DNA of 64,000 bases. Origin: Okeania sp. SIO2C9 (GTDB lineage: Bacteria > Cyanobacteriota > Cyanobacteriia > Cyanobacteriales > Microcoleaceae). Shown piece after piece: positions 1 to 13,242 of this stretch. Location: NCBI RefSeq assembly GCF_010672455.1, contig NZ_JAAHGO010000021.1, positions 62,001 to 126,000 of the forward strand, in the 5' to 3' direction. Each line of letters begins with the position of its first letter. The stretch's first letter is position 1. The translations under genes and the position numbers were made by a program. The notes beneath the pieces are model-generated. The model searched no databases, was not told the DNA's origin, and saw nothing but the letters and a program-made list of their open reading frames with translations.

Positions 1-1957
1 TGATGGGAGCAAATTGTAATGTTTTTGCACCTTCACCAATAATCGCTTCCTGCTCCTGCCACATAATTAGGTTAACCAGAGCGCGTTGACTCATAGCAAC
101 TCCTTTCGGTTTACCTGTGGAACCGGATGTATAGATGATGTAGCCTAGATTTTCTGGTTTGGCCACTTTTGCCAAATTTTCTGTAGGCAACTGAGCGATC
201 GCCTCCCAATCTTTATCTAAGCAAACAACCTGTGCTTGATGTTTGGGCAAAGATGTCACTAATGATTCCTGAGTCAGCAACACTGATACTTGTGCATCAG
301 AAATCATATAAGCTAAACGTTCTGAGGGGTAGCTGGAATCTAGCGGTACATAAGCTGCTCCTGCTTTGAGAATTCCTAATATCCCTACGACCATTTCTAA
401 AGAACGTTCTGCACATATTCCCAAATGTGTTTCTGGCTTTGCTCCCAACTTTTGTAAGTACTGAGCTAGTTGATTTGCTTTGATATTCAACTGTGAATAA
501 GTCAGCTTTTCTTCTGCAAAAACTACTGCCACTGCATCCGGAGTTTTTTCTACTTGTTCCTCAAATAATTCATGGATACATTTGCTTTGAGGATAATCTG
601 TTTTTGTATTGTTCCACTCCACTAATATTTGCTGTTTTTCCCTCTCACTCAGTATCGGTAACTTATCTACTTCTGTCTGAGGATTTTCCACAATTGCTGT
701 TAGTAAATTCTGGAAATGTTCGGCAATTTGACTTACAGTTTCTGCCGCTAATACATCACTATTGTATTTCCAATCAACCAATAGAGATTCCTCTAAATGA
801 ATTGCTTCTAAACTGAGTTCAAAATCTACCTTTTGTTGTGGGATCTGATAATATTCTAATTCTAATTCTTTGGCATTAAATAATTTATCGAACTTGTAAT
901 AACCAAAAGCTGCTTGACAAATAGGAGAATAACTCAGATTAGATAATTTGAGTTGTTGTACAAGTAGAGCAAATGGATAATCTTTGTAGCTTTCTGTTTC
1001 AAATACTGTTTTACTGACTTGAGTCAAAAAATCTGTAAACTTGAGATTCCCTGAAATAGAATCTCTGATAACCGTAACATTAGTAAAATTGCCAATAACT
1101 CCAGGGAATAATGGTTTACTTTCTCGATTTTGTAATAAACCTACAAGTAAATCTTCTTCTCCTGTATAGCGGTAAAGCAGGACTTTAAATACTGCTAATA
1201 GTATCTCTTCGACTTTTACTACTTCTGTTTTTGCCAGTTGTTTAATTTGTTGACTTAATTGTAAATTTATGGTGCGCCTTATTGATTTTCCATTATAAGT
1301 TCTAATGGTTGGACGAGGAGAATTTGTTGGTAATTCTAACACTGGTAATTCATCAGCCAAATTCTGTTGCCAATAATCACCAAACTGTTTTCCTTCTGAA
1401 CTCTTGAGCAAGTCTAATTCTTTCTGAATATAATCTTCATAAGATTGATTTAGTATGGGTAAATCTAGAAATTCATCATTAATTTTTGATTCATAGAGAG
1501 CCACAAATTCATTCACTAATATTAATAAAGACTCCCAATCTCCAGCTATTTGATGAACAGTCAATAACAAAATATTCTCTGTTACCGAACGTTTAAATAA
1601 ACAAGCACGAAATACCCCGCTATTTTCTAAGTTAAAAGGACGTTTTATTGAGTCACATAACTGCCCTTCTAATTCCTCATTGCTCCAAGATGAAGCAGAA
1701 ATTTGTTCAAAATTAATATCGACATTTTCCCTAATTGTTTGAACTATTTTTCCATCTTGTTCGTAATAAATACTGCGAAGAATTGAGTAACGTTCAGTTA
1801 ATACTTGCAGTGTATTTTTGACAGCTTGAATATCCAGAGGAGATTTAATTCTAACCGCCAGAGATATTTTATCTGTTAAACCCTGAGAGTTAAACTTATA
1901 CAGAAACCAATTTGCTTGCTGTATGTGGGAAGTAGAAAGCGATAGTAAAGTAGACAA
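1..1957 (-). CDS. NRPS (condensation-adenylation), partial; MysE-like candidate
   Basis: Partial nonribosomal peptide synthetase whose C-terminus runs off the left edge. The proposed start is TTG at 1957, behind an AGAGGAA-like ribosome binding site. About 650 codons are visible. Residues 1 to about 430 form a condensation domain and an adenylation domain follows, with the A3 core YTSGSTGKPKG at roughly 160-100 of the window. The condensation active-site motif HHxxxDG reads HQIAGDW, so the catalytic second His is absent. The residues that set substrate specificity lie outside the window. As last gene of the MAA cluster it may play the MysE role, coupling an amino acid to mycosporine-glycine. 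Known MysE proteins are usually A-T-TE, so the extra N-terminal domain is atypical. NRPS identity is firm; the MAA role is inference. Confidence 0.85.
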   Translation of the reverse strand, partial: MSTLLSLSTSHIQQANWFLYKFNSQGLTDKISLAVRIKSPLDIQAVKNTLQVLTERYSILRSIYYEQDGKIVQTIRENVDINFEQISASSWSNEELEGQLCDSIKRPFNLENSGVFRACLFKRSVTENILLLTVHQIAGDWESLLILVNEFVALYESKINDEFLDLPILNQSYEDYIQKELDLLKSSEGKQFGDYWQQNLADELPVLELPTNSPRPTIRTYNGKSIRRTINLQLSQQIKQLAKTEVVKVEEILLAVFKVLLYRYTGEEDLLVGLLQNRESKPLFPGVIGNFTNVTVIRDSISGNLKFTDFLTQVSKTVFETESYKDYPFALLVQQLKLSNLSYSPICQAAFGYYKFDKLFNAKELELEYYQIPQQKVDFELSLEAIHLEESLLVDWKYNSDVLAAETVSQIAEHFQNLLTAIVENPQTEVDKLPILSEREKQQILVEWNNTKTDYPQSKCIHELFEEQVEKTPDAVAVVFAEEKLTYSQLNIKANQLAQYLQKLGAKPETHLGICAERSLEMVVGILGILKAGAAYVPLDSSYPSERLAYMISDAQVSVLLTQESLVTSLPKHQAQVVCLDKDWEAIAQLPTENLAKVAKPENLGYIIYTSGSTGKPKGVAMSQRALVNLIMWQEQEAIIGEGAKTLQFAPI

Positions 1958-2115
1958 AACTTGATTCCTCTCTATTTTATTTAGCGAACATTTTTCTGAT
2001 TTTCTTAACCGGTATAGCGCAAGTCATTTCAGTTATCAGTGAGGGGTTGTGCAACCCAATTATTTTGATAAATATCTCATGACTTAGCATGGCAAAATTT
2101 AGGTCCCTAATTTTC

Positions 2116-3087
2116 TCAGTCATTTTCCAGCTTGATAGCAGATGTGCTAGAAATAGCCAAATACATTCCACATAAAATTACAAAGAAACTTACCACAGTC
2201 AAAAAATTCAGGCTTTCTGAGAATATAGCCCAACCTTCCACCGCACTGAGAGCAGGAATAACCAACGTCACTAAGCTACTAAATCCAGCAGATAACTTTT
2301 TGAGACAATAAGCCCAAAGTCCCATAGCAAGCATCTGACTAACGAGAGCTTGGGCAATGACTGCAAGCCACCCATTTACCGAAGTTGGGAAAAGTTGCTC
2401 TTCGGCGATCAGAACAAAAGGTAATATAAATAGAAAACTTGTTGTTGTAGACCAAGTCATAATAGTGACAGGGCTTAAATTACTACGGAGTTTCTGAATG
2501 ACAAGTGGATGTATTCCAAAAAACACTGCTGAGAGCAAAGCTGCTAAACTTCCTAATAGTTCTTGGCTCATCCTCAATGATAACAGTTCTTTTGCTTCTA
2601 GTAAAGTTGCTCCAAAAATCGCAACTACCATACCAATCAAAAATCGATTGTCGAAAGTTTGACCTAAAGCTAGCCATCCTCCCAAGACGGTAAATATTGG
2701 CACCAGATTATGGATCATACTAGAGTTGGCAATACTCGTTTGATTTAAAGACCAAGCCCAAAGCATTAGACCTACTGATATAAGAACACCATCTATTATT
2801 AGTAGCTTTGCCCTATTAACTAGATGGTGCTTTTGTTGTTCGAGTTGAGTTTCTTTATTTTTGTCTCGGTCGCGTACTGTCAATAAAATATTTAGCAGCC
2901 AAAAGGCAACAGCCGCTATCCAAAAACGATTAAATGCTGTAGCGTTTGGTCCGATTTCCAGTTCGCTCAAACGGATAAAAATGGGTGAAAAAGAGAGACA
3001 GATTATGCTAGCTGTTAATGCAACTAAAGAATCTATCGGTAAAAATGAGACAAACTGTAGTTTTAATAATTTTGCTTGAGCATTCAT
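2116..3087 (-). CDS. EamA/DMT-family transporter
   Basis: Intact 323-residue inner-membrane protein of the drug/metabolite transporter (EamA) superfamily, about ten hydrophobic segments in two repeated halves. Recognisable features are SPIFIRLSE near the N-terminus and the second-half helix LSAVEGWAIFSE. It lies between mysD and the NRPS on the same strand, so it is a candidate exporter of the MAA or a precursor. A closely similar but broken copy lies at 5303-6128 on the other side of mysD, which points to a local duplication. The substrate cannot be told from the sequence. Confidence 0.85.
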   Translation of the reverse strand: MNAQAKLLKLQFVSFLPIDSLVALTASIICLSFSPIFIRLSELEIGPNATAFNRFWIAAVAFWLLNILLTVRDRDKNKETQLEQQKHHLVNRAKLLIIDGVLISVGLMLWAWSLNQTSIANSSMIHNLVPIFTVLGGWLALGQTFDNRFLIGMVVAIFGATLLEAKELLSLRMSQELLGSLAALLSAVFFGIHPLVIQKLRSNLSPVTIMTWSTTTSFLFILPFVLIAEEQLFPTSVNGWLAVIAQALVSQMLAMGLWAYCLKKLSAGFSSLVTLVIPALSAVEGWAIFSESLNFLTVVSFFVILCGMYLAISSTSAIKLEND

Positions 3088-3334
3088 CTTTTTTTCTAGA
3101 CTTAGTCAAATGGGAATGATAATAACGATAAATTAAAGCTACTGAATAGCCAGTTTCCTAATTAGAACAGGACTTACCCATGAGGTACGAAAAACTAGGA
3201 CTTGAAATTACTTCCCTAGACGGAAATACGTTGAGGTGCTTGTCACCCCTTGAGACTCTGATGTTTACTTCTGTGTAAGGACGTTGCATGCAACCTCCCT
3301 ACCTACTCCTCTGCTCAATAAAATGAGAAATGGT

Positions 3335-3468
3335 ATTATCAAAATAATATGGGTCGCGCAACCCTCCCTTTTAAGGCGAAATATTTTTGGAGAGTTGCTC
3401 ACATCCCCTACTTCCCCTGCTGGGAGGGGGAGGGGTAGGTTGACTTCTGACTTCTGACTTCTGACTTC
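3335..3468. repeat. Dispersed repeat ending in a TGACTTC heptamer run
   Basis: The spacer upstream of the EamA gene holds a copy of a dispersed repeat (ATCAAAATAAT, then an AAGGCGAAATATTTTTGGAG block). Related copies are at 7985-8110 and 36288-36490. It ends in four tandem copies of TGACTTC at 3441-3468. Positions 3166-3180 resemble one end of the CAGGACTTACGCA inverted-repeat family. No coding potential was seen. Confidence 0.7.
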
Positions 3469-3469
3469 G

Positions 3470-4579
3470 TTACACCTTTGCTACTTGCTCTGATTTACTG
3501 TACTTAAACAATGAACCACAAGCTACGCGAGTCCTCCCTGCTGCTGCACTCCATAGTTGCAAAGCTACATCTTCTAAATTTTGCCCATCAGCTTGAAGCA
3601 TCCGAGAAATCATGCTAATTTTGCCGAAAGACCAAAATAATCCTGCTTCCAGCAGATATGGCTCATTGGTTTCTGCGTGTACTCGGAAGTCATACAAAGA
3701 ATAATCACGACATCCCAAAGCAACATGAGCCTTCTTAGCACTATCAGCAAGTTTCTTGAATAGTTCTGGTGTGACATTAGCTGGACATATTGGCTTCACT
3801 GCTGGTTTCTCAGGTTGTTTTCCAGGGGTTCCGTCTGATTTTAGCTCCAACTTATGATGTAAAGTTCTAATAGGGTGTTCCTCCGTGACTAAATACTCTA
3901 TCATCGGCAAGACGGACAACTTACCTTCATATTCAACAACACCTACACGGAATTCCCTTCCAGGAATATAATCCTCAACTAACAACGTCTCGTCTAGTTC
4001 AAACCCAACTTTCAATGCTGCCTCTATCTGAGATTCATCCCACACCAATGTCACACCCAAAGAATTGTCTTCCGAGGTTGGTTTCACGACAAAGGGCGGC
4101 TGCATTGTTAATTTATCTCCCCGTCGTAGTTGCTGTGCTTTAGCAACTACGACATCAGATACAGACACAACGCTCCGTGTCTGTGCTTTGTTAGTTGCTA
4201 ATGCTGTGCAATGGGATGGCGACCCAACTACGGGGATACCAATAATATCCTCAAATAAAGCACGGAAACTCGTCATTCCAGGAAAGCAGAACATATGGGG
4301 AACTACTACGTCAATCTGAGGTAGTCGAGGAATCATATCCTGGAGAGACATCTTTTCCGACAAGGAATCTAAGGATGTTCCTAACTGCCAAAGACTGTCA
4401 GGATGTACCACTGCATAGTAGCTATTGACACCCACTGGTTGCACTACTTCTTTTGCGTAAACTATTGATAAGTTGTAGTAAAAGTCAGAAACAAGGGAAC
4501 CTGCGAGGTGCAATACTCGTAACATTGGCATTGTCTTTAAGGATGAAGGTTGAGTCTGAGGATTTTTTTCTAATGTCAT
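3470..4579 (-). CDS. mysD: D-Ala-D-Ala ligase-like MAA ligase MysD
   Basis: ATP-grasp ligase of the D-alanine-D-alanine ligase fold, 369 residues from ATG at 4579 (an upstream in-frame extension to 4708 is low-complexity and unlikely to be coding). Visible features are PFVVKPTSEDNSLGV (ATP-grasp lysine region), LLVEDYIPGREFRVGVVE and a C-terminal DFR/LLEAG metal- and ATP-binding segment. In MAA pathways MysD condenses serine, threonine or another amino acid with mycosporine-glycine to give disubstituted imino-MAAs such as shinorine or porphyra-334. It lies in the mys cluster between two EamA copies. The fold is certain; MysD rests on family resemblance plus mysA, mysB and mysC on the same strand. 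Confidence 0.85.
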   Translation of the reverse strand: MTLEKNPQTQPSSLKTMPMLRVLHLAGSLVSDFYYNLSIVYAKEVVQPVGVNSYYAVVHPDSLWQLGTSLDSLSEKMSLQDMIPRLPQIDVVVPHMFCFPGMTSFRALFEDIIGIPVVGSPSHCTALATNKAQTRSVVSVSDVVVAKAQQLRRGDKLTMQPPFVVKPTSEDNSLGVTLVWDESQIEAALKVGFELDETLLVEDYIPGREFRVGVVEYEGKLSVLPMIEYLVTEEHPIRTLHHKLELKSDGTPGKQPEKPAVKPICPANVTPELFKKLADSAKKAHVALGCRDYSLYDFRVHAETNEPYLLEAGLFWSFGKISMISRMLQADGQNLEDVALQLWSAAAGRTRVACGSLFKYSKSEQVAKV

Positions 4580-4717
4580 AATTAGTTGTTTTGTTTCTAT
4601 TAAATTAGTTAATTGTGTCCTAAATTTTAACAAAACAAAAAAAGTAGAAAAATTAATTTTTATTAATTGTGACTGCTTTGATATAGCGAATATTAAATAT
4701 ATTACCAAAAGCTGTTA

Positions 4718-4830
4718 TATCATGTTCGGATAATCAGTGATAAAAAAACTTTATCCCTTTTAACCTTTTCTTCTCTCCTGCATAGCTGCCTTCTTTCCTC
4801 CAAAGTGTAAGTATTCAACCAAACATGATA
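4718..4830. mobile_element. MITE family A, copy 1
   Basis: 113-bp non-coding element with inverted ends TATCATGTTCGG and CCAAACATGATA. It is flanked by TTA at 4715-4717 and 4831-4833, read as a 3-bp target duplication. The sequence just inside the left end (GATAA..AGTGATAAAAAAACTT) is shared with the copy at 53933-54056. It lies just upstream of mysD. Confidence 0.7.
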
Positions 4831-4968
4831 TTAGGACTTTTCTAGGTGATTTTGTATGGAGTCTACTGTGGACTACAGCCAGACAATAATATCCCCTGGG
4901 TTCCACTTGAATATTACTGCATTTTTCTATTCTTTTTCCCTAATTATTTAGCCTAATATTCTGTTATT

Positions 4969-5221
4969 TTACTTTGAAGGTAGTCCTTTTTCAATAGTTT
5001 TCAATGTTTTATCTTCAAACGTAGCTAGAGATTTTATACCTAAATCTACACCAACTACATCTACTGATTTATCAGTAATTTGAGGTGTGGTTTCTACTTT
5101 GAAACTGACAAACCATCTATCGGCTTTTTTGCTAATAGTTACAGATTTAGGAGTGACATCATCAGATAATACTTCATAAGTTTTAACCCATCCAATTCTC
5201 GGTAGTTTAAGATGATATTAA
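4969..5221 (-). pseudogene. TnpB (IS200/IS605 family) internal fragment
   Basis: A minus-strand frame of about 80 codons reads LPRIGWVKTYE and, further on, GVDLGIKSLAT. The latter is the RuvC-I block of TnpB with its catalytic Asp. The frame ends at TAA (4969), with no RuvC-II, zinc ribbon or RuvC-III downstream and no N-terminal part, so this is a decayed fragment. It sits between mysD and the broken EamA gene. The stretch 5222-5302 carries a short open frame of unrecognised origin. Confidence 0.75.
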
Positions 5222-5302
5222 AGCTTCTAAATCTCCGAGTATCTGGTCTCTGGTTAATGATGAAATGTCATTTAATTCTAGTAAAGCTCTCAACTTTTGC
5301 CT

Positions 5303-6128
5303 TCAATAAGAAGACTCAATTTTCGGTTTGATAGCAGACCTACTAGAGATAGCCAAATACATTCCCAATAAAATTACAAAGAAACTTACCGAAGTCAACA
5401 AGCTAAGATTTTCTGAGAAAATTGCCCAGCCTTCAACAGCGCTGAGAACAGGAATAGATAACGCAACTAGACTAGTAAGTCCAGCAGATAATCTTTTGAG
5501 AGAATAAGCCAAAAGTCCTATACCTAACATTTGAGCAACAACGGCTTGAGCAATAACTGAAAACCAACCAGTGAAAGAACTTGGAAAAAGTTGCTCTTCA
5601 ACAATTAAAGCAAAAGGCAATAATAACAGAGAGCTAGTTGCCGAAGACCAAGTCATAATAGTGATTGGATTTATCTGAGTTCGGAGTTGCTCAACTATCA
5701 GTGGGTGTATGCCAAAAAATACTGCTGAAAGTAATGCTGCCAAATCTCCTAGTAGTTGTTGGCTGACTCTTAGTGATAAAAGTTGACATCCTCCCCGGCC
5801 TAAAGGCACGGGGATTCCTACCGAGCCGTAGCTCCTCGGCTAGGTCAAGTAGATGGAGTTTTTGTCGATCTGATTGGATTTCCTTTTGGATTTCCTTTTT
5901 TCGTTCTCGGTGGCGCACAGCCAAAAATAGACTCACTAACCCAAAGGCAACAGTCGCAATCCACAAGCGATTAAATATTGTGGCATTTGGACCGATTTCA
6001 TATTCGCTCAAACGGATGAAAATTGGTGATAAAGATAGACATATCGTTCCACCCATTAATGCAGCTAAACAGTCTATCGGTAATGATAAAAATAGTTGTA
6101 ATCGTGATACTTTATTGGGAGCATCCAT
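5303..6128 (-). pseudogene. EamA/DMT transporter, disrupted by an IS-like scar
   Basis: Two frames reconstruct one EamA transporter closely similar to the intact gene at 2116-3087. Codons from 6128 give the N-terminal part (SPIFIRLSE, GPNATIFNR). A second frame ending at 5303 gives the C-terminal half from LLSLRVSQQLLG onward. Relative to the intact copy about 76 residues (roughly three membrane helices) are missing, replaced by an IS200/IS605-end-like scar at 5781-5846. A functional ten-helix transporter is not possible, so it is called a pseudogene. It lies between the SSS symporter and mysD. Confidence 0.85.
5781..5846. mobile_element. IS200/IS605-type end scar inside EamA gene
   Basis: About 65 bp carrying GACATCCTCCCCGGCCTAAA, a GGCACGGGGATTCC arm and a second hairpin around GAGCCGTAGCTCCTCGGC. 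This is typical of the hairpin right ends of cyanobacterial IS200/IS605 (TnpB-type) elements. It replaces about 230 bp of the EamA coding region, so it looks like an insertion followed by deletion. Confidence 0.65.
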
Positions 6129-6173
6129 CTTTATTCCGTCTCAATAAAACTGATACAAGGTAGTACAATTTTT

Positions 6174-7610
6174 TTATTTACTCAACTGTCTAGAGTCGAT
6201 CAAAAAATGAACAATTCCATAAACAATAAAGCCTGCAGCCATACCGGGAAAGACTTCATAAATAGCACTAGATAAGCCAAGTCCTAAATTCCAGGCTATG
6301 GAAACAATAATACCAATAATCATTATGGCGATCGCTACTGGCACACTCACTGGCTTTTGCCAAACCCGCAATACCAGTAACGGACCTAAACCACAAGCTA
6401 AAATTGACCAAGCAAAAATTACTAAAGCGAATACGTTATTGTCTCCTGCTAGGGCGATCGCTAATACTATAGCTGTAACAACTAAGGTAGCAATTTTAGC
6501 CATTCTATAAGAATTAGCTGTGTTAGGAATCAAGTCTTGACTCAATGCAGCCGAACAAGATAGTATCTGAGAGTCTGCTGTGGAAATAGCTGCTGAAAAT
6601 AATCCGGCTAATATTAACCCTACCATCACTCCTGGTAACAGTTCCATAGATAGATAAGGTAATGCCAACTCTGGGTCACTTGATGTGATTAAATCTGGCA
6701 ATAATGCTCTTGCAGTTAATCCCACACCGAAGGCTGTAGCAGAGTTTATTTGACCACAGACAAATTTGATATTGCGAGCCAAAGCAACATTCTCTGCGGA
6801 GTCAATTGCCATTGCTCGTACTAATATGTGAGGCTGACCTACAGCGCCAAACCCTGCCACTACCCATCCCAAAAAGTAAGGGAAAAATCCCCAAGGCAGA
6901 TTTGCAGGTATCCAATTTGTCAGGGTGGGGTCAATTGCATTGAGTTTTGCCCAAAGTTCTCCAAACCCACCACAGTTAATCAAACCTACTACAGACAAAA
7001 CCAACAAGGAACCAATCATCAAAATTGCCTGCACTGAGTCAGTCCAGATAGAAGCACGAATGCCTCCTGAAAAACAGTAAATAACGACAATTACAGCTCC
7101 AATGATAACTCCTAACTGATAGTTCCAGCCAAATATGGCATTTAGTCCTTTGCTTGCTGCTACCAGTTGAGCTGAAGCATAAGTACCGAGAAAAGCAATA
7201 GTAATTAAGGCTGAAATTATTGTAATCAGGCGTCCGTTATTTTTTCCTTGCCCTAGATTTTCTTGACCGAGGAATGAGGACACTGTATCTGAATTTGTTT
7301 GTTGAGAGACTAATCTCAATTTTTTGAATATCAGCCACCAAGCAATATAGTCTCCTATTGCCCAAGCAACAGGTATCCAAATGGAAGCAACTCCCACTTT
7401 GTAAGTAAAGCCAACTACTCCAATGAATAAATATCCACTCTGACCTGTTGCCATTGCTGATAAAGCTGTCAACCAGGGATTAACATTTCTACTAGCAAGT
7501 AAGTAATCATTTGTTGTGTTTTGTTTTTGGGTTACGGAGTAAATACCTACTACTGTAAATAACAGTAGAAAGGCAATAAATGTCATCGCAATCCAAATTT
7601 GTTTATCCAT
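6174..7610 (-). CDS. Sodium:solute symporter (SSS family)
   Basis: Intact 478-residue membrane protein with about 13 hydrophobic helices and the SSS-family segment ALSAMATGQSGYLFIG, comparable to the sodium-binding region of PutP-type Na+/proline symporters. It would couple uptake of an organic solute, likely an amino acid, to the sodium gradient. Its place between mysC and mysD on the same strand suggests it supplies an amino acid substrate for MAA synthesis or recovers MAAs; that is inference. The start is ATG at 7610. Confidence 0.85.
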   Translation of the reverse strand: MDKQIWIAMTFIAFLLLFTVVGIYSVTQKQNTTNDYLLASRNVNPWLTALSAMATGQSGYLFIGVVGFTYKVGVASIWIPVAWAIGDYIAWWLIFKKLRLVSQQTNSDTVSSFLGQENLGQGKNNGRLITIISALITIAFLGTYASAQLVAASKGLNAIFGWNYQLGVIIGAVIVVIYCFSGGIRASIWTDSVQAILMIGSLLVLSVVGLINCGGFGELWAKLNAIDPTLTNWIPANLPWGFFPYFLGWVVAGFGAVGQPHILVRAMAIDSAENVALARNIKFVCGQINSATAFGVGLTARALLPDLITSSDPELALPYLSMELLPGVMVGLILAGLFSAAISTADSQILSCSAALSQDLIPNTANSYRMAKIATLVVTAIVLAIALAGDNNVFALVIFAWSILACGLGPLLVLRVWQKPVSVPVAIAIMIIGIIVSIAWNLGLGLSSAIYEVFPGMAAGFIVYGIVHFLIDSRQLSK

Positions 7611-7734
7611 AAAAATTGATTATTTCACCTTAGTAGAAACTTGGTTTCTCTTGCTTAATTTCTGAGTTTACACTCTACATAAATCCGGTTTGTTAATCTC
7701 CGCCTCAATACCTGGTTTTTCTACTTTTGTTTAC

Positions 7735-8110
7735 CGAATTATTTAATTATTTAATTATTAATAATTAAATAATTCTGGTTTAAAGCCTTCCCTTTTCAGG
7801 AGAAAAAAGCGGTCGTTAGCGTTTGCGATAGCATTCCGTAAGGAAAGCTTCCCGTAGGGTGGGATGGCGAGGAAACCTGCCCCATATCCAATCGACCAAG
7901 ATAAGAAATAATATTTCCTTATATTCAATCAAGAACGGTTTTAACCAGAGATAATTATCAATTATCAATTATCAATTAATGAAGTTAGGTTTATCAAAAT
8001 AATTGGGTCTAAAACCGCGCCTTTTAAGGCGAAATATTTTTGGAGCGAAGCTCAAATCCCCGTTACAAAAATAACTTCTGACTTCTGACTTCGTTAAACC
8101 TGATACTAAT
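7735..8110. repeat. Dispersed repeats between symporter and mysC
   Basis: The 790-bp spacer (7611-8400) has no credible gene. It holds an AATTATTTAATTATT-rich boundary, then a repeat block (AAAAAAGCGGTCG ... CCATATCCAATCGACCAAG) also found at 11575-11725, 14680-14790, 59038-59130 and inverted near 53590-53750. A second block at 7985-8110 (ATCAAAATAAT ... GGCGAAATATTTTTGGAG ... ACTTCTGACTTC) matches those at 3335 and 36288. Only weak A+T-rich sequence lies from 8110 to 8400. Confidence 0.7.
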
Positions 8111-8400
8111 TTTACAACTGTCTGCTACAAATAGCTATGGGATTTATTAGAAGTTAGGTAGGGAATCCTTCAGATTGGCGACGTACAGAATGAATAGCTT
8201 TGATAACATTTTTTTTGTTGTAAATCATATTTTTAGTCAAAGAGACATCTCTTGTAAAGTATTTATATCCCCCCTATTATTCATAATATTATTTTGTACA
8301 ATTGGTCTTACACAAACCCGGTTTTTAAATCTAAATACCAGTATAAATCTGGTTTGTATTTTTTAGTTTCTGAGTTTACAGTCTACAGAAATCCAATTGA

Positions 8401-9765
8401 TTAATCTCCGCCCAATTCTACTAATTTCCCAATATTAAAGTCAATTCTTACCCAGCCTTTTAATTTTTGCAGATTACCTAACAAAAGTAAAGGAATTTGC
8501 CAATGATGTACCATCAAAAATGGTAAGGGGTCATTCACTTGAAAAATTCCGTCTGTTCCTTGAAAAATTTTGTTAATCCAAGTTTTTAATTGCCCCAAAG
8601 ACCTAATTCCTGTCAGTCGCCATAATTCATGGTAAGTCCAATAAGTAGGTTTACTATTTGGCAGTGGTATTAGTGAGGCTTCATTTTCATCTTTACTATC
8701 TTTCAAATAAGCATCTGCTACTCCTGGATGGTCGTGAAATGTAGTAATAGCTGAGTGAGTTCTGGGGTTACATTCAATGGGATAAACTCGACCGTCTTCT
8801 GTTTCAATAAAGTCAAAAGAAATTTGCCCAGTAATATCTAATTCTCTGACAAATTTTTCTACCCATTGATAGATTTGAGGTCGATCTACATGATGATAAT
8901 TGACTTGAAATTCTGATGATTCACAACAACAATATAGTCTAACTTTACCTTTTCTGACAGTGCTATGGGTACAATATTCTTTGCCTTTAACAAATTCCTG
9001 CATAATCCAGGGTATCTCTTCACTAATCGGCAATATATTGACAAATTCTTCCATTTCTGATTTTGAATTCATGGGCAGTTTTGTCATATCTAAACGACGC
9101 ACTGAATCGTAAGGAATACTTTTGAGAATATACTTACTCCCATCAGTAGCAAAGTCAAAATTGAGAACTTGTTCAGGATTTGTAATTAAAAATGATTTTG
9201 GTACAGATAAACCAAAACTTTTAGCTTTTTCAATAAATGTAAATTTATTATCTAATAGTTGCGTAATTTCAGCATCAAAATGCAATACTTCACAGTGTTC
9301 TGATAAAAGCGGTTTTGCTAAAGATTCATAGTAGCTTCCTGCCGGACTAGATACCGGGATAAATACGTCTATTTTTTCTTTTTTAACAATCTCTAATAAT
9401 CCTTGAGAATAGCCCTCCCAATCTTTTTGGGGAAAGGGTAATGTATAGAAGCTCGTAACAGCATTAGAAAATCTATTTCCTGATAACCAATATTTATTTG
9501 CTTCTAGTAGAAAAACTTTGTGTCCTGCTGCATGGAATGAACGGGCAAGTTGCAAACATTTTGTCATTTTTGCGCCCGTAATTAGGATTTTTTTTGGGTT
9601 TTCAGCTACTATTTTTTTTTGAAAAGGTTGACTAATAAAATTCCAGAGCAGTGATGGTATTACCTTTAGTAAATTCAACGGTAAAACAATTAACAATAAA
9701 ATCAGAGAACCGAGATTTTGGAACAGTGCATAAGCAGGTCCTTGAACAAATAAAATTAGTGCCAT
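8401..9765 (-). CDS. mysC: ATP-grasp mycosporine-glycine synthase MysC
   Basis: 454-residue ATP-grasp protein with a hydrophobic N-terminal segment (about residues 3-45). A nucleotide-binding part follows with KKILITGAKMTKCLQLAR, then an ATP-grasp domain with KYILKSIPYDSVRR, IMQEFVKGKEYCTHS and the catalytic segment FDFIETEDGRVYPIECNPRTHSA. This matches MysC, which activates 4-deoxygadusol with ATP and couples glycine to form mycosporine-glycine. It is third of the core mys genes on this strand (mysA, mysB, panD, mysC). The start ATG at 9765 is preceded by a 375-bp spacer containing a MITE. Confidence 0.9.
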   Translation of the reverse strand: MALILFVQGPAYALFQNLGSLILLLIVLPLNLLKVIPSLLWNFISQPFQKKIVAENPKKILITGAKMTKCLQLARSFHAAGHKVFLLEANKYWLSGNRFSNAVTSFYTLPFPQKDWEGYSQGLLEIVKKEKIDVFIPVSSPAGSYYESLAKPLLSEHCEVLHFDAEITQLLDNKFTFIEKAKSFGLSVPKSFLITNPEQVLNFDFATDGSKYILKSIPYDSVRRLDMTKLPMNSKSEMEEFVNILPISEEIPWIMQEFVKGKEYCTHSTVRKGKVRLYCCCESSEFQVNYHHVDRPQIYQWVEKFVRELDITGQISFDFIETEDGRVYPIECNPRTHSAITTFHDHPGVADAYLKDSKDENEASLIPLPNSKPTYWTYHELWRLTGIRSLGQLKTWINKIFQGTDGIFQVNDPLPFLMVHHWQIPLLLLGNLQKLKGWVRIDFNIGKLVELGGD

Positions 9766-9882
9766 GTTATTATTTATGATCAGGAAAAAAGTGTTAACTA
9801 GCTATCTGCTTGAGCGCATTTCCTGACGGAATGCTCCGCAAACAGCTAGTCTCCTAGGTCGGAACTGCGTTAACAGCTTTTA

Positions 9883-10022
9883 GAGACTGTTTGTAAAGTT
9901 TTGTAATATACAATGATTGACCTTTAAACTCTAACAACTTGGTTATTTATCCCAGATTTATAGGCTGAAATACCCAATTTGCCAGGGGTAAAAACACTTC
10001 ATAATTATTTACAAACAACCTC
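9883..10022. mobile_element. MITE family D, copy 1
   Basis: 140-bp element with ends GAGACTGTTTGTAAA and TTTACAAACAACCTC (imperfect inverted repeats). Its interior (CAATGATTGACCTTTAAA ... TTGCCAGGGGTAAAAAC) recurs in opposite orientation at 58888-59015. It is non-coding and separates panD from mysC. Confidence 0.7.
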
Positions 10023-10140
10023 TTAGCAGCTCTGGGTTAAAATCCCCTTATCAACGTAAACAAAAATGATTCTACTGACTGCTGACAGCTTCTTTAAGTT
10101 TTTGAGAATAAAAATTTAGCTGCAAAGGTAGGTCTAAGTA

Positions 10141-10497
10141 TTAATTTTTCTGTAGAGGATTATTATTTTTATCCACTAAAATTACTTGGGGACGATGTAG
10201 AAGTGCTTCTTCTGGTGTCATTTGAGCATAAGCGATGACTATTATCTCGTCCCCAACAGCATTTATTCGGGCTGCTGGACCGTTGAGGCAGACAATACGA
10301 CTACCCCATTCCCCTGGAATAGTGTAGGTTTCTAGCCGTGAACCGTTATTGACATTAATTACTTGTACTTTTTCATAAGCTAATATACTGGCAGTTTTTA
10401 GTAGTTCTTCATCAATGGTAATTGAACCCTCATAATATAGTTGTGCTTCAGTTACTTTGAGTCGATGCAGTTTACTCTTAAAAATTGTCAGTAGCAT
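10141..10497 (-). CDS. panD: Aspartate 1-decarboxylase proenzyme PanD
   Basis: 118-residue pyruvoyl-dependent decarboxylase that converts L-aspartate to beta-alanine, the pantothenate precursor. Every key PanD residue is in place: Lys9, His11, Tyr22, the self-cleavage pair Gly24-Ser25 (which yields the pyruvoyl group), Arg54, Thr57, Tyr58 and Asn72. It lies between mysB and mysC on the same strand, an unusual neighbourhood for a coenzyme A gene. Either it is housekeeping and there by chance, or it supplies beta-alanine to the MAA pathway. The biochemical assignment is strong and the MAA link is inference. Confidence 0.9.
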   Translation of the reverse strand: MLLTIFKSKLHRLKVTEAQLYYEGSITIDEELLKTASILAYEKVQVINVNNGSRLETYTIPGEWGSRIVCLNGPAARINAVGDEIIVIAYAQMTPEEALLHRPQVILVDKNNNPLQKN

Positions 10498-10597
10498 TTG
10501 ATTATAATTATTTATATCGGTAACACCTATGATGTTACCGAATATTCAGGAGTTATATCCAATTATTTATTGGGTTAATAATATCCTCAAACCATAA

Positions 10598-11443
10598 CTA
10601 CTTTCGTTTAATAATAGTTACCCCATCTCGTAAAGGTAGCAAAACTTGTTCTACTCTGGGATCTTCTGCAACAAAACGGTTAAATTTAGCGATCGCTTCT
10701 CCATTAGCAGCACGCTTTTCTGGTGGAAGATAAGGTTGCCCTTGCAGTAAAGTATTATCAACACAAATAAATCCATTTGGTGCTAATAAACTTGTATCTA
10801 AGAGAATTCTGAAATATTCTATATACTCTTTTTTATCGGCATCAATAAACACTAAATCAAAAGTTTCTCCGGCATCTGCCAACTTTTGCATAGTTTCCAA
10901 TGCTGGTGCAACTTCGACTGATATTTTCTTTCCAGCGGGAGACTTTTCAAAACAAGCTTTAGCAAAGTCAGCTACATATTGATCGACTTCACAAGCAACT
11001 TCATGTCCATCTTCTGGCAGCGCTTCTGCCATTGCCAATGCAGAATACCCGGTAAACATTCCAATTTCTAGGATACGTTTCGCCCCAGTCATGTGAACGA
11101 ACATTTTTAGAATTTGCCCCTCAATATGCCCAGATAACATTTCCTGTTCTAACTGGCGCACTGTTTCGCCATCAGAAAATCGTAAATTCCAGGGTTCCCG
11201 GCGAGTCTTTTCTGCTAATGCTGCTAACGCATCTGACTCCTGGGTAGTATTTTTTTCAATGTAGGGGTCAAGACCTTCTGCTAATTGGTAAGCATCTTTA
11301 ATAGCCTCAGCAAGTTTGGCAGGTATTTCTACGGTTTCTGCCATCTTGACAGTTTTTTCAAGTTGTTCTACTAAAATACCCAATGGTGTAACTGGTCTGG
11401 CGGTTTTTGTATTTACAGTTTCTGTATTTACAACGGTTATCAT
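10598..11443 (-). CDS. mysB: O-methyltransferase MysB
   Basis: 281-residue SAM-dependent O-methyltransferase of the caffeoyl-CoA type. The SAM-binding motif is ILEIGMFTGYSALAMAEAL (around residue 120) and the metal/SAM motif is DLVFIDADKKEYIEYF, followed by GFICVDNTL. In MAA synthesis MysB methylates 2-demethyl-4-deoxygadusol to 4-deoxygadusol. It follows mysA on the same strand with a 455-bp repeat-filled spacer between, and has the full length of the family. Confidence 0.9.
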   Translation of the reverse strand: MITVVNTETVNTKTARPVTPLGILVEQLEKTVKMAETVEIPAKLAEAIKDAYQLAEGLDPYIEKNTTQESDALAALAEKTRREPWNLRFSDGETVRQLEQEMLSGHIEGQILKMFVHMTGAKRILEIGMFTGYSALAMAEALPEDGHEVACEVDQYVADFAKACFEKSPAGKKISVEVAPALETMQKLADAGETFDLVFIDADKKEYIEYFRILLDTSLLAPNGFICVDNTLLQGQPYLPPEKRAANGEAIAKFNRFVAEDPRVEQVLLPLRDGVTIIKRK

Positions 11444-11529
11444 ATTTCTATTCCATTACTATTGGATAAGTAGAATGGGCAAAGACTAAATCATCTATAG
11501 CATGCGAAAACTAAGTTTTATCCTAAGCA

Positions 11530-11760
11530 TTACCGAATAATTAATAATTAATAATTAAATAATTCGTGCCTTGAAGCCTCCCCTTGGATAGGGGAAAAAA
11601 GCGGTCGAGGGATGGCGCAATTCGGAGCGGCTCTGATCAGAGCGGGTCTCCTCGCCATATCCAATCGACCAAGAGAAGAAATAATATTTCCTTATATTCA
11701 ATCAAGAGCGGTTAAAACCCGAGGTAATTATCAATTATCCATTATCAATTATCCATTAAT
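11530..11760. repeat. Dispersed repeat between mysA and mysB
   Basis: The mysA-mysB spacer (11444-11898) carries TAATTAATAATTAA runs, the AAAAAAGCGGTCG...CCATATCCAATCGACCAAG block shared with 7784-7940, and an ATTATCAATTATCCATT run. It is non-coding. It puts repeat DNA inside what would otherwise be the mysAB operon. Confidence 0.7.
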
Positions 11761-11898
11761 GAAAAGGGTTTGAGATTAATTATCGCAGAGGTCTGATGAA
11801 AATTTTGCGGTCTTTGCCCATTGTTGTTCTTTTTTTTCAAAAGGGAGCAGGGAGGAATTTCTTGTTTTCTCCACCCCACATCACAACTTCTATTTATT

Positions 11899-13242
11899 TT
11901 ACTCCAAACCAAGATCACTTAAATACATTTGTTCGCCTTTTCCTTCATTTGGCACAGAGGTACAAAAATTCTTATGTTCCTCCACAGCAGATATTAATAA
12001 GTCTGAGGGAACTTCTCCAGCAAAACTACAACTACCAATACCTGTAGGTAAAGGTGCCCATAACCCACTACTACCGCGCTTGCGACGCATATTTTTCTGT
12101 CCTTGAATCATCAAATCACTGTCTTCGAGGATAGGATGATAAACTGATAAACCAAGAGAAGAACATAGTGCAACTATTCTGTCGCGATCGCCTTTTTCTA
12201 ACCAACCCATTTCCATTGCTAAGGTTGCTCCAAAAGCCATACCAATAGTAACAGCATGACCGTGCATCAATTTGACTGCTGGCTCAAATTTGGGACTCCA
12301 GGTGTGACCGTAAGCATGGGGTCTGTCTTGATAGGTCTCGAACATATTTGTTCCCTCATGCTTCATGTAGGAATACAATGCTCGATAAATTACTTCATCA
12401 GCTACCTGGATCAGTTCCTCATCCGCATCAAAGTTAGCAAAATGGGTTTCAATTAACCGTGGGCCGTATTCTTCTAGTAAATCAAATAGCACTGGGTCAT
12501 CAGTTACTGCCATTTTGATAATTTCTGCCATCCCATTACGGATATGACCTTTTGCCAAAGTACGGAATAAGCTACGATCTACTATTGTTATAACTGGGGG
12601 ATGATACGCACCGATACTATTTTTAAATAGCTGACCATTTGTGCAGGTACGAGGGGATGGTCCGGCGTCAATAGCTGCAACAATGGAACTTCCAATCATC
12701 ACATAAGGTGTTCGTCGGTGCTGCAAAGCACAGGCCAAACCTGCCACATCGCTGAGTACGCCACCTCCAATGATTAGTACTGGTTCGTTGCGGGATACAT
12801 CACAGCCATCTTTGCCTAAGAATTTGAGTATCCGCTGGACTGTTTCTGGAGTTTTGTCTGATTCCCATGCACGACAAACTAGAGTTTCTAAGGGAATTTC
12901 ATTGTGCTTAAAATAAGCTTGCAGTGATTCTCCATAAAGTTCATCGACTGTTTGATCGACAACTGCTACACAACGACCGCGACTTTTGTAGATTTCTGCC
13001 AAAACTGGGTTAGATGGGTTTAAGACTCCATATACCAACTTTACTTCTGATTTGAGACTAAAGGTTGCAGAAATCTCGAATGAGCGACCATCTTCTACTG
13101 CCCTGATTTCTCCACGACCATCGTACCACTCTGAGGTTCGGTACTTCTTTGCATGATCGCGCCGAATACTGGGGTCAAATGTGAAGTCTGGTTTGCTGAT
13201 TTCTTCGGTTAATGCTTTAGGCGGAAATATTGTGTTGGTCAT
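11899..13242 (-). CDS. mysA: 2-demethyl-4-deoxygadusol synthase MysA
   Basis: 447-residue sugar-phosphate cyclase of the dehydroquinate-synthase superfamily. Family signatures include the NAD-binding GGGVLSDVAGLACALQHRR, then DAGPSPRTCTNGQLFKN, and metal-site segments GMAEIIKMAV, HAYGHTWSPKFEP and HGHAVTIGMAFG. These are typical of DDGS/MysA, which turns sedoheptulose 7-phosphate into 2-demethyl-4-deoxygadusol, the first MAA step. It is the promoter-proximal gene of the cluster, with a long regulatory-length spacer upstream. 2-epi-5-epi-valiolone synthase is the main alternative, but the mysB and mysC neighbours favour DDGS. Confidence 0.93.
   Translation of the reverse strand: MTNTIFPPKALTEEISKPDFTFDPSIRRDHAKKYRTSEWYDGRGEIRAVEDGRSFEISATFSLKSEVKLVYGVLNPSNPVLAEIYKSRGRCVAVVDQTVDELYGESLQAYFKHNEIPLETLVCRAWESDKTPETVQRILKFLGKDGCDVSRNEPVLIIGGGVLSDVAGLACALQHRRTPYVMIGSSIVAAIDAGPSPRTCTNGQLFKNSIGAYHPPVITIVDRSLFRTLAKGHIRNGMAEIIKMAVTDDPVLFDLLEEYGPRLIETHFANFDADEELIQVADEVIYRALYSYMKHEGTNMFETYQDRPHAYGHTWSPKFEPAVKLMHGHAVTIGMAFGATLAMEMGWLEKGDRDRIVALCSSLGLSVYHPILEDSDLMIQGQKNMRRKRGSSGLWAPLPTGIGSCSFAGEVPSDLLISAVEEHKNFCTSVPNEGKGEQMYLSDLGLE

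Follow-up and report, generated by a model that had tools for sequence, protein, structure and literature searches.

Described gene clusters for mycosporine-like amino acids (MAAs) take several forms. The mysABCD form, for example that of Nostoc punctiforme, encodes MysA, MysB, MysC and MysD. A second form encodes MysE, a non-ribosomal peptide synthetase (NRPS), represented by the serine-type Ava_3855 of Anabaena variabilis and by the C-A-PCP-TE proteins (condensation, adenylation, peptidyl carrier and thioesterase domains; the carrier is also written CP or T) of Chlorogloeopsis and HT-58-2 (PMC4558948, PMC8073705, PMC10510106). From 293 complete genomes MysE has been sorted into Ser, Gly and Pro types, the single Pro case being that of Moorena producens PAL-8-15-08-1, and MysF and MysI have been named (PMC10510106). 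The locus described here lies in a window of 64,000 nucleotides from Okeania sp. SIO2C9 (C124:62001-126000; genome 10.9 Mb) and contains a MysD together with an NRPS of the MysE type whose adenylation pocket is proline-like. We regard it, with a probability of about two in three, as an MAA cluster with two non-redundant second-step enzymes, MysD and a proline-type MysE.

The cluster shares MysA, MysB, MysC and MysD with that of N. punctiforme and adds the NRPS, an aspartate 1-decarboxylase gene (panD) and transporter genes of the SSS and EamA families; its MysD is of a second type relative to mysABCD clusters. The NRPS has the A-T-TE order and the position after mysC in common with serine-type MysE, and its TE is 56-66% identical to those of Ava_3855 and the C-A-PCP-TE forms (PMC4558948, PMC8073705). 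However, the pocket is of serine type there and proline-like here. The Moorena MysE has the same C-A-CP-TE order, a predicted proline specificity and an MAA cluster around it, and this independent prediction supports the proline reading. It comes from a single genome with a truncated mysD (PMC10510106), whereas here the type is found in 10 of the 388 genomes of the order that were surveyed, nine of them with mysD, and with an adjacent methyltransferase; panD, SSS and EamA are further additions of the window cluster. Nostoc sp. UHCC 0926 similarly has a methyltransferase beside a non-serine MysE, in its mysF-mysI-mysE cluster, but that MysE is of Gly type and is accompanied by a TauD dioxygenase, whereas the window combines a proline-like MysE with a cluster that has no dioxygenase. 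As the three MysE classes, MysF and MysI are already published (PMC10510106), the novelty of the cluster as a whole is reduced. In a literature search limited to open text, the additions over published work are the conserved pairing with an intact MysD in three groups, a pocket swap, a degenerate C motif and panD.

Gene order and the single-module synthetase

The minus strand carries the genes in the order mysA-mysB-panD-mysC-SSS-(EamA remnant)-mysD-EamA-NRPS (Table 1), separated by gaps of 45-790 bases; coordinates and domain matches bear out the initial annotation, which had placed mysA, mysB, mysC, mysD and an NRPS on one strand. A single copy of mysC is present (one match in the genome). 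The closest named relative by mysC is Okeania hirsuta (96% identity), and there the suspected synteny recurs with an identical gene order, in which mysA, mysB, panD, mysC, SSS, mysD, the intact EamA, the thioesterase part and the methyltransferase OMT2 are each 94-99% identical to their counterparts in the window. The two synthetases share 91% identity in the C part and 84% in the A part. The arrangement of the cluster is therefore not due to chance.

Beyond the left edge the NRPS is completed as one C-A-T-TE module of 1365 aa (C124:59860-63957), ending 2141 bases outside the window. It is followed by OMT2 and, farther out, by an aroE-like gene and by ATP-synthase genes, the last two named from their translations. 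As a counter-case the initial annotation had named an NRPS leading into an unrelated line of several modules, with a separate cluster from 1957 on; this is thereby ruled out. A search with the T-TE region, in which up to the five best candidates per genome were scored, gave at least 56% identity in 32 of the 388 genomes, with the next match at 46%. All 32 contain MysC, which is found in 180 of the 388 genomes overall. By its thioesterase type and MAA gene context, then, the sequence identifies the NRPS as a MysE. In place of the serine-type pocket of characterised MysE it has a proline-like one, and it is therefore classed as a Pro-type variant, a type recognised in PMC10510106.

It is very improbable that the NRPS and the methyltransferase constitute a separate small natural-product pathway that adjoins the MAA cluster. 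Such a pathway would be compatible with the loose spacing of the genes, with the Okeania genomes G250 and G323 (surveyed genomes and loci carry G and L numbers), which have an MAA cluster with mysD and neither an MAA-type thioesterase nor an MAA-type NRPS, and with G265 and G356, where a Gly-type NRPS and methyltransferase lie apart from mysC. It is contradicted by the presence of MysC in every genome with this thioesterase type, and by the position of the NRPS, which in Okeania, Trichodesmium, Hormoscilla and G215 is a neighbour of mysC or mysD.

The C domain of the window NRPS reads HQIAGDW instead of HHxxxDG and thus lacks the motif of a condensing module. The second His is lost (HQ or HK) in 16 of the 17 MysE proteins with a readable C motif, the exception being the Gly-type protein of G002. 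The accessible text of PMC4558948, PMC8073705 and PMC10510106, where C-A-PCP-TE forms are described, makes no mention of such a loss. All parts of the NRPS are under purifying selection, which is weakest on C. The ratios of non-synonymous to synonymous substitution rates (dN/dS) against O. hirsuta and Trichodesmium are 0.25/0.28 for C, 0.15/0.15 for the A core, 0.16/0.09 for the A subdomain, 0.23/0.17 for T and 0.05/0.09 for TE.

Adenylation pocket and co-occurrence with MysD

Inspection of the sequence beyond the left edge, which the initial annotation had proposed, yielded the domain order given above and the proline-like pocket code DVQFVAQVVK. Searching solved structures with the pocket alone returned TycB (7.7e-25) and GrsB (2.1e-23), followed by LgrA (2.3e-14). 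As controls, a Ser-type pocket placed Txo1 and Txo2 on top, 6ea3 third and EntF fourth, and a Gly-type pocket placed 4zxh and 5u89 on top; the amino acids used by all of these solved proteins are our assumption. The codes of the 32 MysE genomes divide into 12 Ser, 8 Gly and 10 proline-like, and no code was obtained for G297 (interrupted reading frame) and G372 (locus not in the sample). The proline-like code is retained in all 10 genomes of its type, which belong to three families. The pocket suggests a secondary amino acid as the substrate of the A domain, with proline the likeliest.

The window MysD combines the D-Ala-D-Ala-ligase fold family (PF07478) with an MAA context. Its relatives align from residue ~24-60 on, and the ATG at 4579 appears the likelier start. 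MysD was searched in 34 whole genomes. None of the 12 genomes with a Ser-type MysE has MysD anywhere, whereas 9 of the 10 with a proline-like MysE do. The missing one is G247, a fragmented metagenome-assembled genome (MAG); mysD is split into two pieces in different frames in G180, and G215 encodes a MysD belonging to the other type (39% identity). Gly-type genomes contain MysD in 5 of 8 cases, the G369 copy being in two pieces, and lack it in G002, G379 and G353. These counts point to serine-type MysE as a substitute for MysD and to proline-like MysE as an addition on top of it. The view of the initial annotation that MysD and NRPS are normally alternatives thus stands for the serine type among the genomes sampled, and the choice of MysD or NRPS becomes a rule in which a serine-type NRPS replaces MysD and a proline-like one supplements it.

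Single loci were compared for the best-scoring 100 of the 180 MysC genomes, the Okeania genome itself not being among them, and 79 loci from an additional scan of named genomes come mostly from the same genomes; many loci are truncated by contig ends. One locus contained both MysD and an MAA-type NRPS in 6 cases, MysD only in 59, the NRPS only in 12 and neither in 23. Among the 66 loci spanning 19.9 kb or more, the figures are 4, 39, 11 and 12. The 18 NRPS loci, and the 12 with NRPS only, include L044, described below; the L084 synthetase, an unrelated NRPS with HHIVADG, was excluded from the MysE count. As a separate observation, two types of MysD occur in the 100 loci, 25 with at least 60% identity to that of the window and 40 below this value, mostly at ~40%.

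Several points weigh against two non-redundant enzymes with a proline-type MysE. Besides the small number of candidates scored per genome in the T-TE search, the fourth code position moves with the alignment, and the pocket departs at 1-2 of 10 positions from what we take to be the Pro code. The Fisher tests comparing MysD presence in Ser and proline-like genomes (2e-5 by genome; 0.0013 by genus, 0/7 vs 5/5) ignore shared descent. In one Nostoc strain mysABCE and mysABCD are both present, each on its own replicon (PMC10510106), which shows that exceptions to the alternative rule exist, and the absence of MysD in G247, the split mysD of G180 and the truncated one of Moorena indicate that the pair need not always cooperate. 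Finally, a ring-bound proline would have a fully substituted nitrogen, and none of the MAAs in the accessible passages of PMC3083659 and PMC10384724 has one, nor do these passages mention proline.

Some of the same observations could be taken to mean that MysD and the NRPS have their product, or Ser or Thr as substrates, in common, that the altered pocket is neutral and that a replacement of one enzyme by the other is under way. We consider this improbable. The broken mysD copies of G180 and G369, the four genomes named above in which MysD is absent and the mysD of Moorena producens, reported as truncated (PMC10510106), would be consistent with a replacement. The retention of the proline-like code throughout its three families, the dN/dS of 0.15 on the A core, and the fact that Ser-type MysE is never found together with MysD here argue against it.

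OMT2 (METHYLTRANSFERASE) lies within 5 kb of a proline-like MysE in 9 of 10 genomes, the tenth contig stopping inside the gene, and within 5 kb of a Gly-type MysE in 6 of 8, the remaining two lying on contigs 6.3 and 7.3 kb long. Next to Ser-type MysE it is found at this distance in 0 of 12, one of which is covered over just 3.4 kb. Loci L034, L066 and L105, which have OMT2 and no MysE in the covered stretch, argue against a strict tie. The Gly-type locus L264 reads OMT2, EamA, TauD dioxygenase, MFS (other strand) and NRPS. This order agrees with the published mysF-mysI-mysE cluster (PMC10510106) and with Brasilonema, from which a methyltransferase, a transporter and a dioxygenase have been described (PMC9918943). 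OMT2 is therefore probably MysF, as assigned by PF00891 and gene position. A preprint gives TauD as absent from cyanobacterial MAA windows (PMC11888242), which is at odds with PMC10510106 and with L264. A proline nitrogen bound to the ring could not undergo the N-methylation that has been proposed for MysF.

The initial annotation had predicted either two second-step products or a third, NRPS-based modification. In the latter case the NRPS would join its amino acid by an ester or amide to a finished MAA or an intermediate, and the methyltransferase would cap the product. This is unlikely, even if a third step would account for the addition of proline-like MysE to MysD (9/10), for the methyltransferase beside it and for the purifying selection on the C domain, because the second His is gone in every proline-like enzyme whose motif was read and the thioesterase family is the same as in Ser-type MysE, where imine formation is reported. 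Two second-step products are favoured by the proline-like pocket set against the reported Ser or Thr preference of MysD (PMC10510106), the products themselves being predictions.

For two non-redundant enzymes, the scheme of substrates, products, transport and order of steps that we infer is as follows. MysA, MysB and MysC would form mycosporine-glycine, to which MysD, by report on other MysD, would add Ser or Thr to give shinorine or porphyra-334. The A domain of MysE would load proline, most likely, onto the carrier domain. Coupling of this amino acid to the mycosporine ring and release of the product would fall to the thioesterase part, which is of MAA type. On this scheme Okeania may produce two different sunscreens, one of which would belong to a class that chemistry has yet to describe. 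The C domain with its degenerate motif would form no peptide bond and serve at most as a scaffold. OMT2 may modify the NRPS branch, PanD would provide β-alanine for ordinary metabolism and ride along, and SSS and EamA are the candidate importer and exporter.

A related synthetase, in G369 (Hydrocoleum CS-953, a name that is itself inferred), shows a natural exchange of the pocket. Its identity to the window NRPS is 91% for TE, 81% for T, 71% for the A subdomain and 77% for the first A part, but 39% for the A core. The G369 enzyme combines a Gly code with an inserted methyltransferase, features found again in the less related G040, and such an enzyme should load N-methylglycine. The G369 record contains single N bases at L267 positions 1504 and 4985, with a carrier piece repeated at 4985, where two assembled pieces were probably joined. 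A single unbroken stretch covers the A core with its flanking parts as far as T, and TE lies past the join. Proline and N-methylglycine are both secondary amines, and the two codes suggest a secondary amine as the common theme of these MysE proteins.

A wider proposal, offered tentatively and with less than even odds, is that the MysE of Okeania, Trichodesmium and Hydrocoleum is a secondary amino acid synthetase, for proline or, in Hydrocoleum through the pocket swap and built-in methyltransferase, for N-methylglycine. The second ring nitrogen of the products would be fully substituted and the MAAs therefore permanently cationic, made alongside the MysD products. As a hypothesis, they could be the two unidentified compounds that a 2011 review lists among the most abundant MAAs of Trichodesmium (PMC3083659). 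Candidate organisms for a new MAA class would be Okeania hirsuta, Trichodesmium, Hormoscilla and Hydrocoleum. The m/z values calculated for the predicted products are 343.1500 for mycosporine-glycine joined to Pro with loss of water, 357.1656 with a further CH2 and, for Hydrocoleum, 317.1343 with N-methylglycine in place of Pro, against 333.1292 for shinorine. The Hydrocoleum exchange, with flanks kept, offers a guide for engineering sunscreen diversity.

PanD and the transporters

PanD is assigned by an equivalog model and is the sole copy in the genome (one match). Of the 388 genomes, at least 14, from three families and including this one, have an intact panD placed between mysB and mysC, a count that lacks the loci of 80 MysC genomes. 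For 13 of these 14 no PanD other than that of the cluster exists in the genome, and G323 encodes two further ones. A broken cluster panD is seen in G153 and G297, where the mys genes remain and another PanD is present (2/2), a contrast to the intact cases with a Fisher value of 0.025 on very small numbers. This pattern marks panD as probably a passenger. In a tree of 54 rows the cluster type falls in a clade of 18 (support 97/94, with a warning of long branches from the tool), and for 4 of its members no mys gene is nearby in the 9-15 kb covered. These data fit a housekeeping role, with the gene carried along in the cluster, better than a pathway role.

The initial annotation had listed PanD in the composite MAA cluster. 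As a pathway enzyme it would supply β-alanine, which MysC, MysD or the NRPS would attach to the ring. The position between mysB and mysC across three families is what a pathway enzyme would show, and mycosporine-β-alanine and mycosporine-threonine-β-alanine are tabulated from Cnidaria and Rhodophyta (PMC10384724). We nevertheless find this role improbable: a sole PanD must serve pantothenate, the mys genes persist where the cluster panD is broken, and part of the clade is found apart from them. PanD as the source of the NRPS substrate was rejected, as panD also occurs in MAA clusters (Symploca, Roseofilum) where no such NRPS was found. A second ground is that the pocket is not of what we take to be the β-alanine type.

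Of the three transporters with two EamA copies in the initial annotation, one EamA is a remnant, leaving two intact transporter genes. Its overlapping open reading frames (ORFs) of 145 and 168 aa carry both ends, and the middle is gone. The 31-base sequence at the break is found 74 times across the genome, allowing up to 3 mismatches (0 for the reversed control), and is probably the end of an IS200/IS605-type element; a TnpB-like remnant sits between the broken EamA and mysD. In O. hirsuta the EamA at the place of the remnant is full length, and it is 69% identical to the intact EamA of the window. Both panD and the third transporter thus carry less weight in the interpretation of the cluster.

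SSS is found in 40 and EamA in 21 of the 100 loci. The organisms of the named SSS-positive loci (22/79) are nearly all marine or brackish, which suggests a sodium-driven recapture of MAAs. Roseofilum and Prochloron are also marine, and have no SSS in the loci covered. The idea that SSS feeds proline to a proline NRPS is not supported: the nearest equivalog, PutP, scores 274 bits, below the cut-off of 515, and 6 of the 40 SSS loci have a proline-like NRPS. Doubled genes, some copies partial, were seen in related clusters, mysD in L012, L017 and L260 and SSS in L012, L014, L018 and L272.

Feature coordinates and further genes

Table 1. Features of the Okeania cluster and related sequences (window positions unless a contig or locus is named)
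Feature	Position	Strand	Basis or remark
mysA, desmethyl-4-deoxygadusol synthase (DDGS) type of sugar phosphate cyclase, 447 aa	11899-13242	minus	Pfam DHQ synthase domains
mysB, O-methyltransferase, 281 aa	10598-11443	minus	PF01596 6.1e-54
panD, aspartate 1-decarboxylase, 118 aa	10141-10497	minus	TIGR00223 149.9 bits, cut-off 106
mysC, ATP-grasp ligase (mycosporine-glycine formation), 454 aa	8401-9765	minus	NF005315 554 bits, cut-off 406
SSS sodium:solute symporter, 478 aa, candidate importer of MAA or precursor	6174-7610	minus	PF00474 6.3e-61
EamA remnant without middle part	5303-6128	minus	two ORFs; insertion-element scar 5783-5813
TnpB-like (IS200/IS605 type) remnant, 74-aa open piece	4978-5199	minus	PF01385 E 0.0036, below cut-off
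mysD, D-Ala-D-Ala-ligase-like amino acid ligase	3470-4708	minus	PF07478 2.5e-21
EamA transporter, intact, 323 aa, candidate exporter	2116-3087	minus	PF00892 1.7e-36
NRPS (MysE type), first 652/1365 aa in window	1-1957	minus	start codon TTG at 1957, start uncertain
198-aa ORF	L005:14574-15170 (C124:58574-59170)	minus	no Pfam match; between NRPS and methyltransferase
OMT2, methyltransferase, probably MysF	L005:13058-14095	minus, same strand as NRPS	PF00891
Shikimate-dehydrogenase-like (aroE-like) gene	L005:11797-12678	other strand	near left end of cluster; named from translation
MAA-type synthetases with Gly code and inserted methyltransferase	L267:1579-5991 and L265:4229-9403

The best solved match of MysA is 5tpr (1.2e-88, 301 bits), followed by 4p53 (8.1e-60, 206 bits), and its motif HGHAV is that of 5tpr, whereas 4p53 has HGEAV. 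Taking 5tpr as DDGS and 4p53 as EEVS, MysA is by sequence closer to DDGS, and its assignment as EEVS was rejected. MysA proteins form groups of ~70-99% and ~33-43% identity to that of the window; two MysA clades likewise appear in PMC10510106. mysB accompanies mysC in 96 of the 100 loci. As MysH candidates, five PhyH-family matches were found in the genome, none of them on this contig. Locus L044 (G084) contains an MAA-type thioesterase fragment (62% identity over 46% of the query) beside a methyltransferase, perhaps a decayed MysE, with no mysD in the stretch covered. The 198-aa protein encoded between the NRPS and OMT2 has a 90% identical counterpart at the same place in the Trichodesmium MAG G329 (L260:8661-9257).

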